A DNA stretch of 45,194 bases from Pseudomonadota bacterium. GTDB taxonomy: Bacteria; Pseudomonadota; Gammaproteobacteria; UBA5335. The DNA lies in NCBI GenBank assembly GCA_034189865.1, contig JAXHTV010000019.1, positions 1-45,194 on the forward strand, in the 5' to 3' direction. Shown here piece after piece: positions 15,589 through 26,604 of this stretch. Position numbers and translations under genes: made by a program. Each line of letters begins with the position of its first letter. The first letter of the stretch is position 1. The notes beneath the pieces were generated by a model. That model saw only the letters and a program-made list of their open reading frames with translations. It did no database searches and was not told where the DNA came from.

Positions 15589-15724
15589 ACCAAACTATAC
15601 TGTGTCCACTCTAAAACGATATGATTACCTTAAGAATCTGGGAGCGTGTTCCACAGTGACCACCTGTTTACTTCCAGGACAGAGATCGTAAATTTTCGCG
15701 TTAGCCAATCGTAGGAGGAGAGTC

Positions 15725-16174
15725 ATGAAACGAGGCCGAATCTTCGTCATGTTGGCAGGCATGGTCATGGCGACTGTCAGTCCTTGGGCCTTTGCCGATC
15801 AGTTTCAGCAATTTGGCGAATACATTATCCATTATAATGCTTTAAGCACTGATTTCTTGCCCGCTGATCGAGCAAAACATTACGGCATCACCCGGAGCCG
15901 GAATCGGGGCATGTTGACCCTGGCTGTTAGGAAACAGTTGCCGGATGGCACCGAAACAGCCGTCGCCGCCGAAGTCGACGCCAGTGCGGTCAATCTCAAT
16001 AACCAGTACCGGGATATCGCTTTACGCGAGTTCCGCGAAGATCAAGCCATCTACTATGTTGGCGACTTTCCGGTCAGCCACCAGGAAACCCTGCGTTTTA
16101 CCGTGTTGGTGAAACCGGAAGACTCAGACAGTACGTATTCTGTGAAATTCAGCCAGCGATTTGTGACACGCTAG
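15725..16174 (+). CDS. DUF4426 domain protein, exported
   Basis: Secreted or periplasmic protein, 149 residues. ATG 15725 with a very strong AGGAGGAGAG ribosome site. Signal peptide about residues 1-24 ending at PWAFA-DQ. The mature part QFGEYIIHYNALSTDFLPADRAKHYGI is typical of DUF4426, followed by a predicted all-beta domain. This family very often lies downstream of metW in Gammaproteobacteria; its function is unknown. The 136-base gap from metW suggests it may have its own promoter. Confidence 0.88.
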   Translation: MKRGRIFVMLAGMVMATVSPWAFADQFQQFGEYIIHYNALSTDFLPADRAKHYGITRSRNRGMLTLAVRKQLPDGTETAVAAEVDASAVNLNNQYRDIALREFREDQAIYYVGDFPVSHQETLRFTVLVKPEDSDSTYSVKFSQRFVTR

Positions 16175-22138: not shown

Positions 22139-23197
22139 TTGCTTCTAGAAATCTCGACCGAGTACGGCCTTTTCTTGGCAAAAACTGCGACCATCGTAGT
22201 TTTCGCATTGGTGATCGTAGGTGCCGTAGCGATATCGTTTCGACGAGGGCGCATTCAAACCCATGAACATATGGAAATCCGCAAACTCAATGATCGTTAC
22301 GACGCCATGACGAAAGCCATGGAAAGTCGGATACTAGAAAAGCCTGTTCTACGAAAAGTTTTGAAGCAACGAAAAAAAAGCCGCAAGGAACAGGATAAGA
22401 AAATCCGCCGCATTCCCCCAAATTCGGAGCATGGCCGAAAACGCATTTTCGTGTTGGAGTTCATGGGCGACGTCAGGGCATCAGCCATCGACCATCTGCG
22501 AGAAGAAATCTCAGCAGTTTTACTCGTCGGCCGCAAACAGGATGAAGTTGTCCTTCGTTTACATAGTAGCGGCGGTTTTGTCCACTCCTACGGCTTGGCT
22601 GCATCACAACTTCAGCGGATCCGCGATGCCGGCATGACCCTCACCATTTCGGTGGACGAAGTCGCGGCCAGCGGCGGCTACCTGATGGCATGTGTCGGCC
22701 ATCGGATCATCGCGGCGCCGTTTGCGATTATCGGGTCCATCGGCGTCATCGGCCAACTACCCAACTTACACCGGTTTCTAAAAAGGCACGACGTCGACTT
22801 CGAGATCCACACGGCGGGTGAATACAAGCGAACCCTGACGGTTTTCGGCGAAAACACCGACAAAGGTCGGGAAAAATTTCGCCAGGAACTGGAACAGACG
22901 CATGGCTTGTTCAAATCGTTCATCCGCGAGCATCGCCCCAGAACCAATGTGGACACGGTGGCAACCGGTGAATATTGGCACGGCTACCAAGCACTGGAGT
23001 TAAAACTCGTCGATGAACTCCGAACCAGCGATGACTACCTAATGACAATGAGCCAATCGGCCGATATGTATTCGGTACGGTACCGACGAAGGCATCCGAT
23101 GGCGCAGCGATTCGCCCACGCGGCAGACGCTACCGTCGGACGCCTGTTGTCGCGGGCGCAAAACGAAGAACAACAATCTCGCTTTTATAAACACTGA
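22139..23197 (+). CDS. sohB: SohB, inner-membrane serine protease (signal peptide peptidase A-like)
   Basis: Membrane-anchored S49 protease, 352 residues, near the E. coli SohB length. TTG start at 22139 fits the SohB N-terminus (STEYGLFLAKTATIVVF) and one transmembrane helix about residues 15-33. Catalytic dyad: Ser178 in DEVAASGGYLM and Lys230 in AGEYKRTL. The SSGGFVHSYG loop and IIGSIGVIGQLPN stretch are family signatures. Located divergently from pagL, with only 43 bases between starts. Role in degrading periplasmic or membrane peptides is known only in outline. Confidence 0.93.
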   Translation: MLLEISTEYGLFLAKTATIVVFALVIVGAVAISFRRGRIQTHEHMEIRKLNDRYDAMTKAMESRILEKPVLRKVLKQRKKSRKEQDKKIRRIPPNSEHGRKRIFVLEFMGDVRASAIDHLREEISAVLLVGRKQDEVVLRLHSSGGFVHSYGLAASQLQRIRDAGMTLTISVDEVAASGGYLMACVGHRIIAAPFAIIGSIGVIGQLPNLHRFLKRHDVDFEIHTAGEYKRTLTVFGENTDKGREKFRQELEQTHGLFKSFIREHRPRTNVDTVATGEYWHGYQALELKLVDELRTSDDYLMTMSQSADMYSVRYRRRHPMAQRFAHAADATVGRLLSRAQNEEQQSRFYKH

Positions 23198-23256: not shown

Positions 23257-24432
23257 TTGCCGCCGGTGAAAGAGGTCTATTCGGGGCAGGGCAATGGGGG
23301 CCCCGCCCAACAATCAAAAAACGACGCAAAGCAAGTCAGGGCAAGTTATCACGGATGGCGCAAGCGTCTGTGTATTCGCAGACTGCGCCCCGTCCTGTGG
23401 ACTATCCTGCTCGGCTCGCCAGTCATCGCAGGGCTACTGCCCACAGCCACCGCATCGACGCGAGTCGAAGTAGTCCTCATGCTGGGACTTGTTGACCTAG
23501 CGGTCATCGGGTGCTTGCTGCTCAGTCGTAGCCCTTCCGGGCGGATTAATCCAGATCTGCTGGTATTGCTCACGATACTGGCCGTGAACATTCCCATCGC
23601 ACACGGGACAACGTACATCGGAGGATTCAACAATCCGTTTGTATTTGCCCTAAGCTACATGTTTATCACGGGAATCATCATTCCGGCCCACCCGTTGGCG
23701 CTCGTTCTCGCCCACGCTATTTCGATCGGCTACCTGTTTTTCGCCAATTGGATCGACTCGGCTCCGGCAGCCTGGGATCAGGAGAAACTTCAGGTTGGCT
23801 TATTACTGCTACTGATCGCCACCGTATGCAACACCGCATCATTTTTCGTGCGCCGACTTCAATTTGCGGAATTTGAAGCCCGGGGCGAACTCAAACAACT
23901 AGCCAATCGATTTCGTGTGCTCGCCAACGTGGACAGCCTCACGCAAGTCGCAAACCGCCGCGCCTTCGACCAAGCGCTCGATCGAGAGTGGCGACGAATG
24001 CAGCGAGCGCACCGGCCCATGACGCTCATTCTGGCCGATATCGACGAGTTCAAACATTTCAACGACAACTATGGTCATCTGGCCGGTGATGTTTGCTTAC
24101 AAACAATCGCTCAAACGTTGCGCGCCCATGTTCGACGCCCGGGAGACGTAGTAGCCCGATATGGCGGCGAGGAATTCGCCATTGTGCTCCCCACCGTGAA
24201 CGCCGAACAGGGCAGAGAGCTGGCGGAAAAGCTTCGCCGTGCCGTGTACAACTTGAAGATCCCCCACGAAGGCAGCCGGGTCGGACCCTACGTTACCCTA
24301 AGCCTCGGCACCGCGACCCTCATCCCATCCACAGAATTCGGCCCTGGCGAGCTCATTCGGCGTGCAGACCTCGTACTCTACCGAGCGAAAGACAGCGGCC
24401 GCAATCGAAGTTATGTTTATTCCGGTGGCTAA
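23257..24432 (+). CDS. Membrane diguanylate cyclase (GGEEF)
   Basis: Makes c-di-GMP from two GTP. Up to 391 residues; start uncertain between TTG 23257 and GTG 23266 (AGGG nine bases before the latter). About six hydrophobic helices between residues 46 and 195 form an uncharacterised MASE-like sensor. A short coiled coil (200-222) leads into the GGDEF domain (about 225-388) with VDSLTQVANRRAF, DIDEFKHFND, the active motif GGEEF at 303-307 and a product-inhibition I-site R-P-G-D at 294-297, five residues before it. All catalytic positions look intact. The next coding gene is another diguanylate cyclase. Confidence 0.92.
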   Translation: MPPVKEVYSGQGNGGPAQQSKNDAKQVRASYHGWRKRLCIRRLRPVLWTILLGSPVIAGLLPTATASTRVEVVLMLGLVDLAVIGCLLLSRSPSGRINPDLLVLLTILAVNIPIAHGTTYIGGFNNPFVFALSYMFITGIIIPAHPLALVLAHAISIGYLFFANWIDSAPAAWDQEKLQVGLLLLLIATVCNTASFFVRRLQFAEFEARGELKQLANRFRVLANVDSLTQVANRRAFDQALDREWRRMQRAHRPMTLILADIDEFKHFNDNYGHLAGDVCLQTIAQTLRAHVRRPGDVVARYGGEEFAIVLPTVNAEQGRELAEKLRRAVYNLKIPHEGSRVGPYVTLSLGTATLIPSTEFGPGELIRRADLVLYRAKDSGRNRSYVYSGG

Positions 24433-24720: not shown

Positions 24721-24749
24721 TTGACAACAAAACCGTCTCCACCTAATCT
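24721..24749 (+). promoter_or_regulatory. Strong sigma-70 promoter of an orphan transcript
   Basis: Perfect -35 TTGACA at 24721-24726, spacer of exactly 17 bases, -10 TAATCT at 24744-24749. Transcription would start near 24756. No coding gene follows for about 600 bases, and the first structure downstream is a set of hairpins ending in a terminator. Confidence 0.8.
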
Positions 24750-24845
24750 ACGCTCCATCAGCTACCGCGACGGCTTCAAACATAAGCATGGCGCGACAGC
24801 AGACAAAGTTTCTGGCAATCGATGTGAAAACATCGGCCGTACAGC

Positions 24846-24888
24846 GTCTCCTCCTGAAAGGACCCCCTCGTCCTTTCACGCACTTTGC
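24846..24888 (+). repeat. Repeat unit 1 of a structured motif
   Basis: Order: GTCTCCTCC, two bases, AAAGGAC, a six-base loop (CCCCTC), then CGTCCTTTCACGCACTTTGC (overlapping the loop by one C-G step). The inner parts pair as an eight-base stem. Unit 2 repeats the left 9 bases and the right 20 bases with only the loop and two flanking bases changed, so sequence and stem are both kept. Confidence 0.8.
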
Positions 24889-24914
24889 CCCCTGTCCTCC
24901 AGGGGGTTTTTTTT
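24888..24914 (+). terminator. Intrinsic terminator of the candidate sRNA
   Basis: Perfect seven-base stem CCCCCTG/CAGGGGG with a five-base loop, followed by eight T (24907-24914). On the other strand it is preceded by A-run but followed by no T-run, so it works for plus-strand transcripts. Confidence 0.9.
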
Positions 24915-24931
24915 GCCTTGCGTTTTTGCGC

Positions 24932-24972
24932 AAAAAAAAAGCTTGGGCATTAACCCAAGCTTTTTAATTTTT
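24932..24972. terminator. Bidirectional intrinsic terminator
   Basis: Nine A, stem AGCTTGGG/CCCAAGCT (24940-24947 and 24954-24961) with a six-base loop, then five T, AA and six T. The A and T flanks make it able to stop both strands. It separates the two repeat units. Confidence 0.88.
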
Positions 24973-25018
24973 GTCTCCTCCCAAAAGGACAGACCAGCCG
25001 TCCTTTCACGCACTTTGC
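24973..25018 (+). repeat. Repeat unit 2 of the structured motif
   Basis: Copy of unit 1: GTCTCCTCC, then AAAGGAC (24984-24990), a nine-base loop, GTCCTTT (25000-25006) and the same CACGCACTTTGC tail. It begins directly after the bidirectional terminator. I see no promoter just before it, and no U-tract terminator follows; a CACCC/GGGTG hairpin at about 25035-25050 has no T-run. The rest, to 25359, holds nothing I recognise beyond the ribosome site of the next gene. Confidence 0.75.
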
Positions 25019-25359
25019 ACCTAATCCTGCCCGAACACCCTTTGTGGGTGATTGAGGAACGCGAGGCCAAACCATCGCGCCTTCTTGTTCTGGGAACTTA
25101 CATTAGCGCAGCCAATCTCAGAAGTAAACCATGTATTAACATTTCGAAACGAACTATTAATATGGCAAATCGTTAGACAAACGAGCCACCCAGATCTTTA
25201 ATGAAAGTGTCAAAAAACGTAACCGGGAAGGTCGACGCTTCGCCCGGGCACGTAATAGAGCCGCACCAAAACCATAATATTGACACGACACCGACGAAAA
25301 GCAGTCCCGGCAGAAGGGGGTAAAACACGGTGGAAGCGTCATGATAAAAGGGTGACCAG

Positions 25360-26604
25360 ATGAAGGCTTTTCTAGTATGGCTGCGAAACCTGACCGCATA
25401 CCAACAATTCAGCTTGGTACTGGCTTCGGCAGTCATCTCTGCGACACTCATTGCCCCGGTCATTTTCTATGCTGTTGAGGGAGAAATTCCGCTGGGAGTT
25501 TACGTGGCGGCAGCGGCAACCGCAGCGTTCGTAGCCTCTCCACTCATCATGCTGTTTGTCGCCATTGCTCGGAGCCTGGTGAAGAGCGAGGAGAAAATGG
25601 CCATCGTCACCCGCGCGAACAAACGCAAAAACGCGATATTTCGCTCGCTGTTGGACGCCAGCGTCAGCATGCAGACTGCGCACGAATTATCCGATCTCAT
25701 GGACAGCGTATTGCAACAACTGGCACAGCTATTTCCGTCCAACCGATTCGCTGTCATCGTACGGAGTCACAGAGCCGACATGATACTTCATCTGTCCGCC
25801 AGCGGAATCGACGACAGCGAAAAACGCATTCTGATCGCATCGCACGAAGCCCTGATGGCTGGCGACAACGCGGATGTCGAGCGCGCCCTGCGCGAACGCC
25901 ACGAAGGATCTCGCGCCAATCCCACAGATGATATCAGGTGGTATTTTCTGCCGATGCGAGCAAGCGGCGAGCAAACCATCGGCACCTTGGTGATTAAGGG
26001 CCCGCCCCTCAATCAGGAGTCGTTGGAAATCGTCAGCATCTTTCAGGATCAGCTGTCCGCGGCAACGGCAACCAAGTTGTTGGGCTTGGAATTGGAGAAG
26101 CTGGCCAACACAGACCCGCTCACGGGTCTTTTTAACCGCACCTACTTCCAGCGTGAACTCGACAAGAAAATCCGGCTTAAGCGTGAAACGCCGGAACTGG
26201 ATTTTTCTCTGTTAGTGGTGGACGTCAACGGACTAAAAGAAGTCAACGACCAACTCGGCCACCAATCCGGGGACGATCTTTTAACGTCGGTAGCACGATT
26301 ATTAACCCGTGCTTGCCGGTCGGAAGACGCAGTATGCCGCATCGGCGGCGATGAGTTCGTGATTCTCTGCCCCGGGACTTCCACCAGACAAGCGATTCAT
26401 CTCGTGCAACGAATCAAGGAACGCAGCACGCTGAGCGAACGGAATTACCGCACCCCTGAAAATCGCGTAATAACGATACCCTTGAGCCTCAGTATCGGCA
26501 TGGCATGCTCTGCCGATACTGCTCCGGAGGACATTTATCGCGTCGCAGACGGCAAAATGTACGACGACAAGAAAGCCTACTACCAAGACGTTGCCAACAG
26601 TTAA
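25360..26604 (+). CDS. Membrane diguanylate cyclase with GAF-like domain (GGDEF)
   Basis: Second c-di-GMP synthase of the window, 414 residues, ATG 25360 with AAGGGTG upstream. Two transmembrane helices (about 17-38 and 47-70), a short coiled linker, a GAF-like domain (about 90-240: SLLDASVSM..., FAVIVRS, YFLPMRASGEQTIGTLVIKG), then GGDEF (about 248-410). The catalytic motif GGDEF is at 329-333, the metal Asp in VVDVNGLKEVND, and an I-site R-S-E-D at 320-323. All expected residues are kept. It follows the sRNA/repeat region by 340 bases. The GAF domain may sense a small ligand, unknown. Confidence 0.93.
   Translation: MKAFLVWLRNLTAYQQFSLVLASAVISATLIAPVIFYAVEGEIPLGVYVAAAATAAFVASPLIMLFVAIARSLVKSEEKMAIVTRANKRKNAIFRSLLDASVSMQTAHELSDLMDSVLQQLAQLFPSNRFAVIVRSHRADMILHLSASGIDDSEKRILIASHEALMAGDNADVERALRERHEGSRANPTDDIRWYFLPMRASGEQTIGTLVIKGPPLNQESLEIVSIFQDQLSAATATKLLGLELEKLANTDPLTGLFNRTYFQRELDKKIRLKRETPELDFSLLVVDVNGLKEVNDQLGHQSGDDLLTSVARLLTRACRSEDAVCRIGGDEFVILCPGTSTRQAIHLVQRIKERSTLSERNYRTPENRVITIPLSLSIGMACSADTAPEDIYRVADGKMYDDKKAYYQDVANS

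Follow-up and report, generated by a model that had tools for sequence, protein, structure and literature searches.

A probable anti-Shine-Dalgarno small RNA between two GGDEF genes and its widespread gammaproteobacterial relatives outside Rfam

Introduction

Does the non-coding DNA between two GGDEF genes of a gammaproteobacterial contig encode a small RNA (sRNA) and, if so, what would such an RNA do? The original prediction, made on the 45,194 nucleotides analyzed here (hereafter the window), proposed an orphan sRNA at 24721–24914, in which a promoter, a GAAA-tetraloop stem, CTCCTCC, a second perfect stem, and a T8 terminator follow one another. All of these elements are present, in this order. 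The locus is almost certainly a real sRNA gene. The reading preferred here, to which we assign a probability of roughly 0.8, is that its product is a trans-acting repressor that occludes Shine-Dalgarno (SD) sequences and belongs to a widespread gammaproteobacterial family outside Rfam; transcription of the sRNA, binding of Hfq, and repression of targets are what we infer from the comparisons below.

Anatomy of the locus

The features of the locus and its neighborhood, with the evidence for each in brackets where applicable, are as follows.

22142–23194, plus strand: gene for an S49 peptidase (sohB-like), the conserved upstream neighbor of the sRNA in the window's order
23257–24432, plus strand: gene for GGDEF protein 1, which in the window and genome G001 separates the sRNA from the peptidase gene
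24721–24749, plus strand: sigma70-type promoter, TTGACA-17-TAATCT (sequence; TTGACA promoter at the equivalent site in full copies of the family and order)
24756–24914, plus strand: predicted sRNA of ~159 nt, start site predicted near 24756 (promoter-to-terminator span and fold)
24820–24835, plus strand: 5′ stem-loop CGATGT-GAAA-ACATCG with a GAAA tetraloop (string check, fold)
24846–24854, plus strand: GTCTCCTCC, predicted seed or anti-SD patch (near-invariance in 31 aligned copies; accessibility)
24848–24854, plus strand: CTCCTCC within the patch (exact string check)
24855–24878, plus strand: central stem-loop TGAAAGGAC-CCCCTC-GTCCTTTCA (compensatory changes at 8 of 9 pairs)
24879–24887, plus strand: unpaired linker CGCACTTTG with near-invariant CGCAC (alignment)
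24888–24914, plus strand: intrinsic terminator with T8 (terminator scan; compensatory changes at 5 of 7 pairs)
24936–24965, no strand assigned: second hairpin resembling a terminator, its ends T-rich on both strands (terminator scan; sequence)
24970–25018, plus strand: degenerate second module of CTCCTCC, stem, and CGCAC, without promoter or terminator
25360–26604, plus strand: gene for GGDEF protein 2, downstream neighbor in the window and also in G001

Exact string checks placed the promoter hexamers at 24721–24726 and 24744–24749, separated by a spacer of 17, the two arms of the perfect 9-bp central stem at 24855–24863 and 24870–24878, the terminator stem (CCCCCTG/CAGGGGG) at 24888–24906, and the T8 run at 24907–24914. 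The −10 box is weak (three of six consensus matches) and was not picked up by a generic promoter scan; the string TAATCTACGCkCCATC, 3′ of TTGACA, is found in the relative G001 as in the window. The predicted transcript (24756–24914) folded with −55.2 kcal/mol (z = −4.0), and none of 200 shuffled sequences was equally stable. That CTCCTCC is single-stranded, as originally proposed, agrees with its predicted accessibility in the window RNA, where it is mostly unpaired (p 0.82–1.0). The combined pattern of promoter, CTCCTCC, and T7 occurs once on the plus strand of the whole window and not at all on the minus strand. The original account lacked the second module (24970–25018) and the second terminator-like hairpin (24936–24965); the degenerate module 3′ of the main copy is also present in G001. 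A frame of 151 aa spans 24721–25176, but a protein gene is unsupported here, the pattern of conservation being that of RNA stems.

Relatives in the window's order

Searching the nearest genomes at the DNA level recovered the core, from 24846 to ~24918, in G001, G002, G004, G005, and G006 at 87–95% identity. The relatives with named records are metagenome-assembled proteobacteria, one of them filed under Thiotrichales (Gammaproteobacteria). Every full copy has a TTGACA-type promoter ∼43–127 nt 5′ of CTCCTCC or CTCCCCC, with −10 boxes at the expected distance (for example TAATCT, TATGAT, TAATAT, and TAAACT). The 5′ part of the sRNA is without sequence conservation among the relatives; in those that were folded, a 5′ hairpin of unrelated sequence was predicted.

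In G002, G004, G005, and G006 the S49 peptidase gene lies directly 5′ of the sRNA. The two GGDEF genes are incidental neighbors, because the sRNA of the window's family follows the peptidase gene and a GGDEF gene intervenes only in the window and G001. A position between two c-di-GMP synthases is thus true of the window itself, but it does not characterize the sRNA, the common neighbor of which is the peptidase gene in this order and phaR and pnp elsewhere; a link to c-di-GMP as the defining context was rejected, GGDEF neighbors being confined to the window and G001. It is improbable that the RNA is no separate gene and merely the 3′-UTR of the upstream GGDEF gene or the leader of the downstream one. 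Both GGDEF genes do lie on the strand of the sRNA, the promoter starts ∼290 nt past the first GGDEF stop codon, and release from a longer RNA by RNase E remains compatible with what was found; however, a TTGACA promoter stands immediately 5′ of the RNA, here and in the relatives of the order, the upstream gene varies among relatives (elsewhere it is phaR), and the T8 terminator separates the RNA from the downstream gene.

Extra copies are not peculiar to the window: G006 has an additional one 5′ of its main copy. The possibility that the locus is an integration-site repeat was rejected in favor of tandem duplication as the simpler explanation, since the 127–130-nt repeat comprises the RNA module only and an extra copy recurs in relatives. 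Phage origin was rejected as well, the core pattern being unmatched in viral contigs.

Covariation and conserved letters

In a free MAFFT alignment of the first seven sequences, 6 of 16 pairs had changed on both sides with pairing kept. Compensatory change was seen at 11 of 16 pairs with 13 sequences and at 13 of 16 with 31 sequences (29 distinct; 98.6% of cells paired), although fitting to the model biases these two alignments toward it. When partners in the 31-sequence alignment were slid by one to three columns as a control, only 1–7 pairs remained, with 40–66% paired. Conservation of the stems in relatives, which the original prediction had named as a check, is therefore borne out by compensatory changes, and the sRNA reading is supported. 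Among the unpaired letters of the 31 aligned copies, two groups are near-invariant, UCUCCUCC 5′ of the stem and CGCAC 3′ of it.

Consensus elements of this kind do occur by chance, and promoter-like and terminator-like sequences that happen to line up in non-coding DNA could in principle look like the locus described here. Conservation, covariation, and synteny across orders refute this explanation, the likelihood of which we regard as negligible.

Distribution beyond the window's order

Searches with two covariance models, R1 and R2, turned up clear members of the sRNA family in further families of the class. Class-wide matches below ∼34 bits were mostly plain terminators and were left out of the counts. 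The order of G178 yielded covariance-model matches in 76 of 81 genomes, covering 20 of 21 genera, so that “orphan” was the wrong word: the sRNA is near-universal in one whole order and has relatives in others, yet it is missing from Rfam. The best-scoring copies of that order reside in a phaR-sRNA-pnp locus. Of the best 18 new loci in that order (L074–L091), 16 have pnp beside the sRNA and 16 have phaR; among those lacking one or the other, some are cut by the flank or a contig end. Multiple copies are frequent, for example three within 0.5 kb in G376 and three within 2.2 kb in G416. No match was found in the plasmid collection searched.

In the window's own order, G006 (L065) and G008 (L095) carry a copy that converges on pnp, an arrangement that favors homology across orders over chance resemblance. 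In the window's genome no copy adjoining pnp was found (best score, 9.5 bits).

Three further observations were made among the matches. In G120, a gene of the phage integrase family (L028, 1638–2906) lies directly 3′ of the sRNA, and the terminator region of the sRNA may be an integration site there. A more distant RNA at L032 (1500–1578, minus strand) combines GTCTCCTCC with a long imperfect stem and a T8 terminator at 36–40 bits and is possibly an outlying member of the family. Finally, (CTCC)CTCTCTCGCACTTCGCGCC followed by a terminator, at L020 (contig C7 of the window's own genome), L096, L098, and L101, looks like the 3′ end of a second candidate sRNA; it is conserved in the family, matches R1 and R2 weakly, and has a CGCACTT linker in common.

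Comparison with known RNA families

No Rfam family reached its threshold for the window or 29 further loci; a riboswitch or other known RNA, an Rfam hit to which the original prediction had held would count against it, was accordingly rejected. No description of this sRNA family was found in the open-licence literature. The nearest Rfam families, RF02278 and RF02837, scored ∼17–28 bits, with aligned parts that are mainly UCUCC and the terminator. For RF02278 (gathering threshold, 50 bits) scores were 22.2 for the window, 28.0 for L028, and 18.8 for L081; for RF02837 (49.5 bits) they were 19.8 for the window and 25.2 for L028; and for RF00519, suhB/mmgR (41 bits), 15.7 for the window.

The closest known system is RF02278, the toxic small RNA or double-hairpin RNA of Betaproteobacteria (ncS03, ncS05, ncS27, and ncS62 of B. 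cenocepacia; S17 of Bordetella is similar). RNAs of this family inhibit growth of E. coli when cloned. Like them, the window sRNA has an unpaired GUCUCCUC patch, one stem-loop, and then the terminator; the variable upstream part, the several copies per genome, and the weak matches across the whole model are further likenesses. The two differ in hairpin sequence and gene neighbors and in the CGCAC linker conserved in the family of the window's sRNA. The RF02278 RNAs include a second CU-rich site complementary to ribosome-binding sites, which in S17 is in the first loop; in the family studied here, the hairpin loop is C-rich (CCCCUC) in the window's order and of the UAAC or UAG type in the G178 order. 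These comparisons suggest that a wider structural type may exist, with the RF02278 RNAs described from Betaproteobacteria as one of its branches.

RF02837 (anti-hemB, Burkholderia RNA 7) also has UCUCCUCC followed by stem and terminator, but its model puts the patch inside the hairpin loop, and no hemB neighbor was seen at the loci studied here. The window sRNA most likely works like the RF02278 and RF02837 RNAs, judged by this analogy, but its scores do not place it in either family. MmgR (RF00519, alpha-r8, of Sinorhizobium) is likewise a short sRNA with a terminator, and its gene is under repression by PhaR (AniA), a control also suggested for the phaR-adjoining relatives; it is alphaproteobacterial, however, and the window's order is without PhaR. 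Alphaproteobacterial cuckoo or CcsR-type RNAs carry a CUCCUCCC motif and lie 3′ of a DUF1127-type gene. The NmsR sibling sRNAs of Neisseria have CU-rich unpaired stretches complementary to ribosome-binding-site regions and occur in tandem copies (PMC5688073), traits that the window sRNA resembles when the two are set side by side by description. The window sRNA shares with trans-acting, Hfq-dependent sRNAs as a general class a promoter of its own, a structured RNA, and an intrinsic terminator ending in a U-run.

Predicted function and targets

We propose that the sigma70 promoter drives a stand-alone, trans-acting sRNA of ∼159 nt, the transcript of which would be ended by the intrinsic terminator. 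The variable 5′ hairpin probably either shields the 5′ end or is lost in processing, and the conserved functional part would be the 3′ module of single-stranded UCUCCUCC, stem-loop, CGCAC, and terminator. UCUCCUCC is the complement of a strong SD sequence; it would pair with purine-rich SD sequences (AGGAGGAGA) and thereby keep the 30S subunit from binding a set of mRNAs, probably together with Hfq, the gene for which is present in the window's genome. The patch is predicted to be mostly open in the window RNA but partly paired in the folds of some relatives (G002, G006, and G033). The conserved patch predicts a direct route to repressing many mRNAs. Precedents exist in ncS27 (PMC5688073) and S17 (PMC11722255), whose unpaired CU-rich segments have ribosome-binding sites as their known or predicted targets. 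RNase E moreover cuts S17 down to a form of 67 nt starting near the CU-rich patch (PMC11722255), and an analogous step may process the window RNA to ∼70 nt.

The sequence AGGAGGAGA 5′ of ATG was found at seven distinct genome sites versus none for the reversed pattern, which is no control for general SD use; the count shows that such SD sites exist, nothing more, and two of the seven open only short frames. One candidate target is a thiolase-like gene (AGGAGGAGAC), with ten bases complementary to GUCUCCUCCU; others are a monooxygenase-like gene and the gene at 15725–16174 of the window, the first two names being readings of the sequences by eye. At the start of the latter, a 149-aa open reading frame, positions 15713–15727 (AGGAGGAGAGTCATG) hold a perfect SD sequence complementary to the sRNA patch.

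Conservation of two separate unpaired motifs, not one, and the frequency of nearby extra copies in the family would also fit an RNA that mainly binds a protein or another RNA, with CUCCUCC and CGCAC as protein-binding or sponge sites instead of an mRNA seed and the copy at 24970 as a sponge or part of a decoy. We consider this unlikely: the complementarity of CUCCUCC to the SD core is exact, and ribosome-binding sites are where related RNAs with such a patch act. Repression through SD occlusion is therefore retained as the preferred function.

PhaR and the promoter in the G178 order

At the loci of the G178 order phaR is the usual upstream gene, and in 16 of 21 loci (L026, L029, L030, and L074–L091) the sequence TGCRNYGCA overlaps the last T of the −10 box (TATACTGCACTGCAACA). 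The published PhaR site of Ralstonia is YTKNTGCRNYGCANMAR (PMC12849132); that of Sinorhizobium is a palindrome with a YGCRNYGCR core, and Sinorhizobium PhaR binds the mmgR promoter and represses the mmgR sRNA (PMC12542648, PMC8401924). Because the operator-like sites resemble these published sites, control of the sRNA by PhaR is likely in the relatives of the G178 order. With the phaR-pnp position and a PhaR-operator-like sequence over the −10 box, a connection of translation control to carbon storage becomes testable.

No PhaR was found in any of the nine genomes examined of the window's order, so the PhaR setting of the other order is not transferable to the window, and inspection of the window's promoter sequence revealed no TGCRNYGCA. 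As far as the assembly shows, PhaR control cannot hold in the window's organism. A tentative scenario, to which we give somewhat less than even odds, would unite these data: a broad gammaproteobacterial family of anti-SD sRNAs, absent from Rfam, would have had its ancestral site between phaR and pnp and, under repression by PhaR as the sensor of polyhydroxybutyrate, would act as a global repressor controlled by storage state, a counterpart of MmgR; in the PhaR-less lineage of the window it would have been copied behind the S49 peptidase gene and come under new control.

The five loci of the G178 order without a PhaR-like site (L026, L075, L077, L078, and L080) have TACGAAAGTCGTA in common, an inverted repeat between −35 and −10 that may be the site of another regulator.
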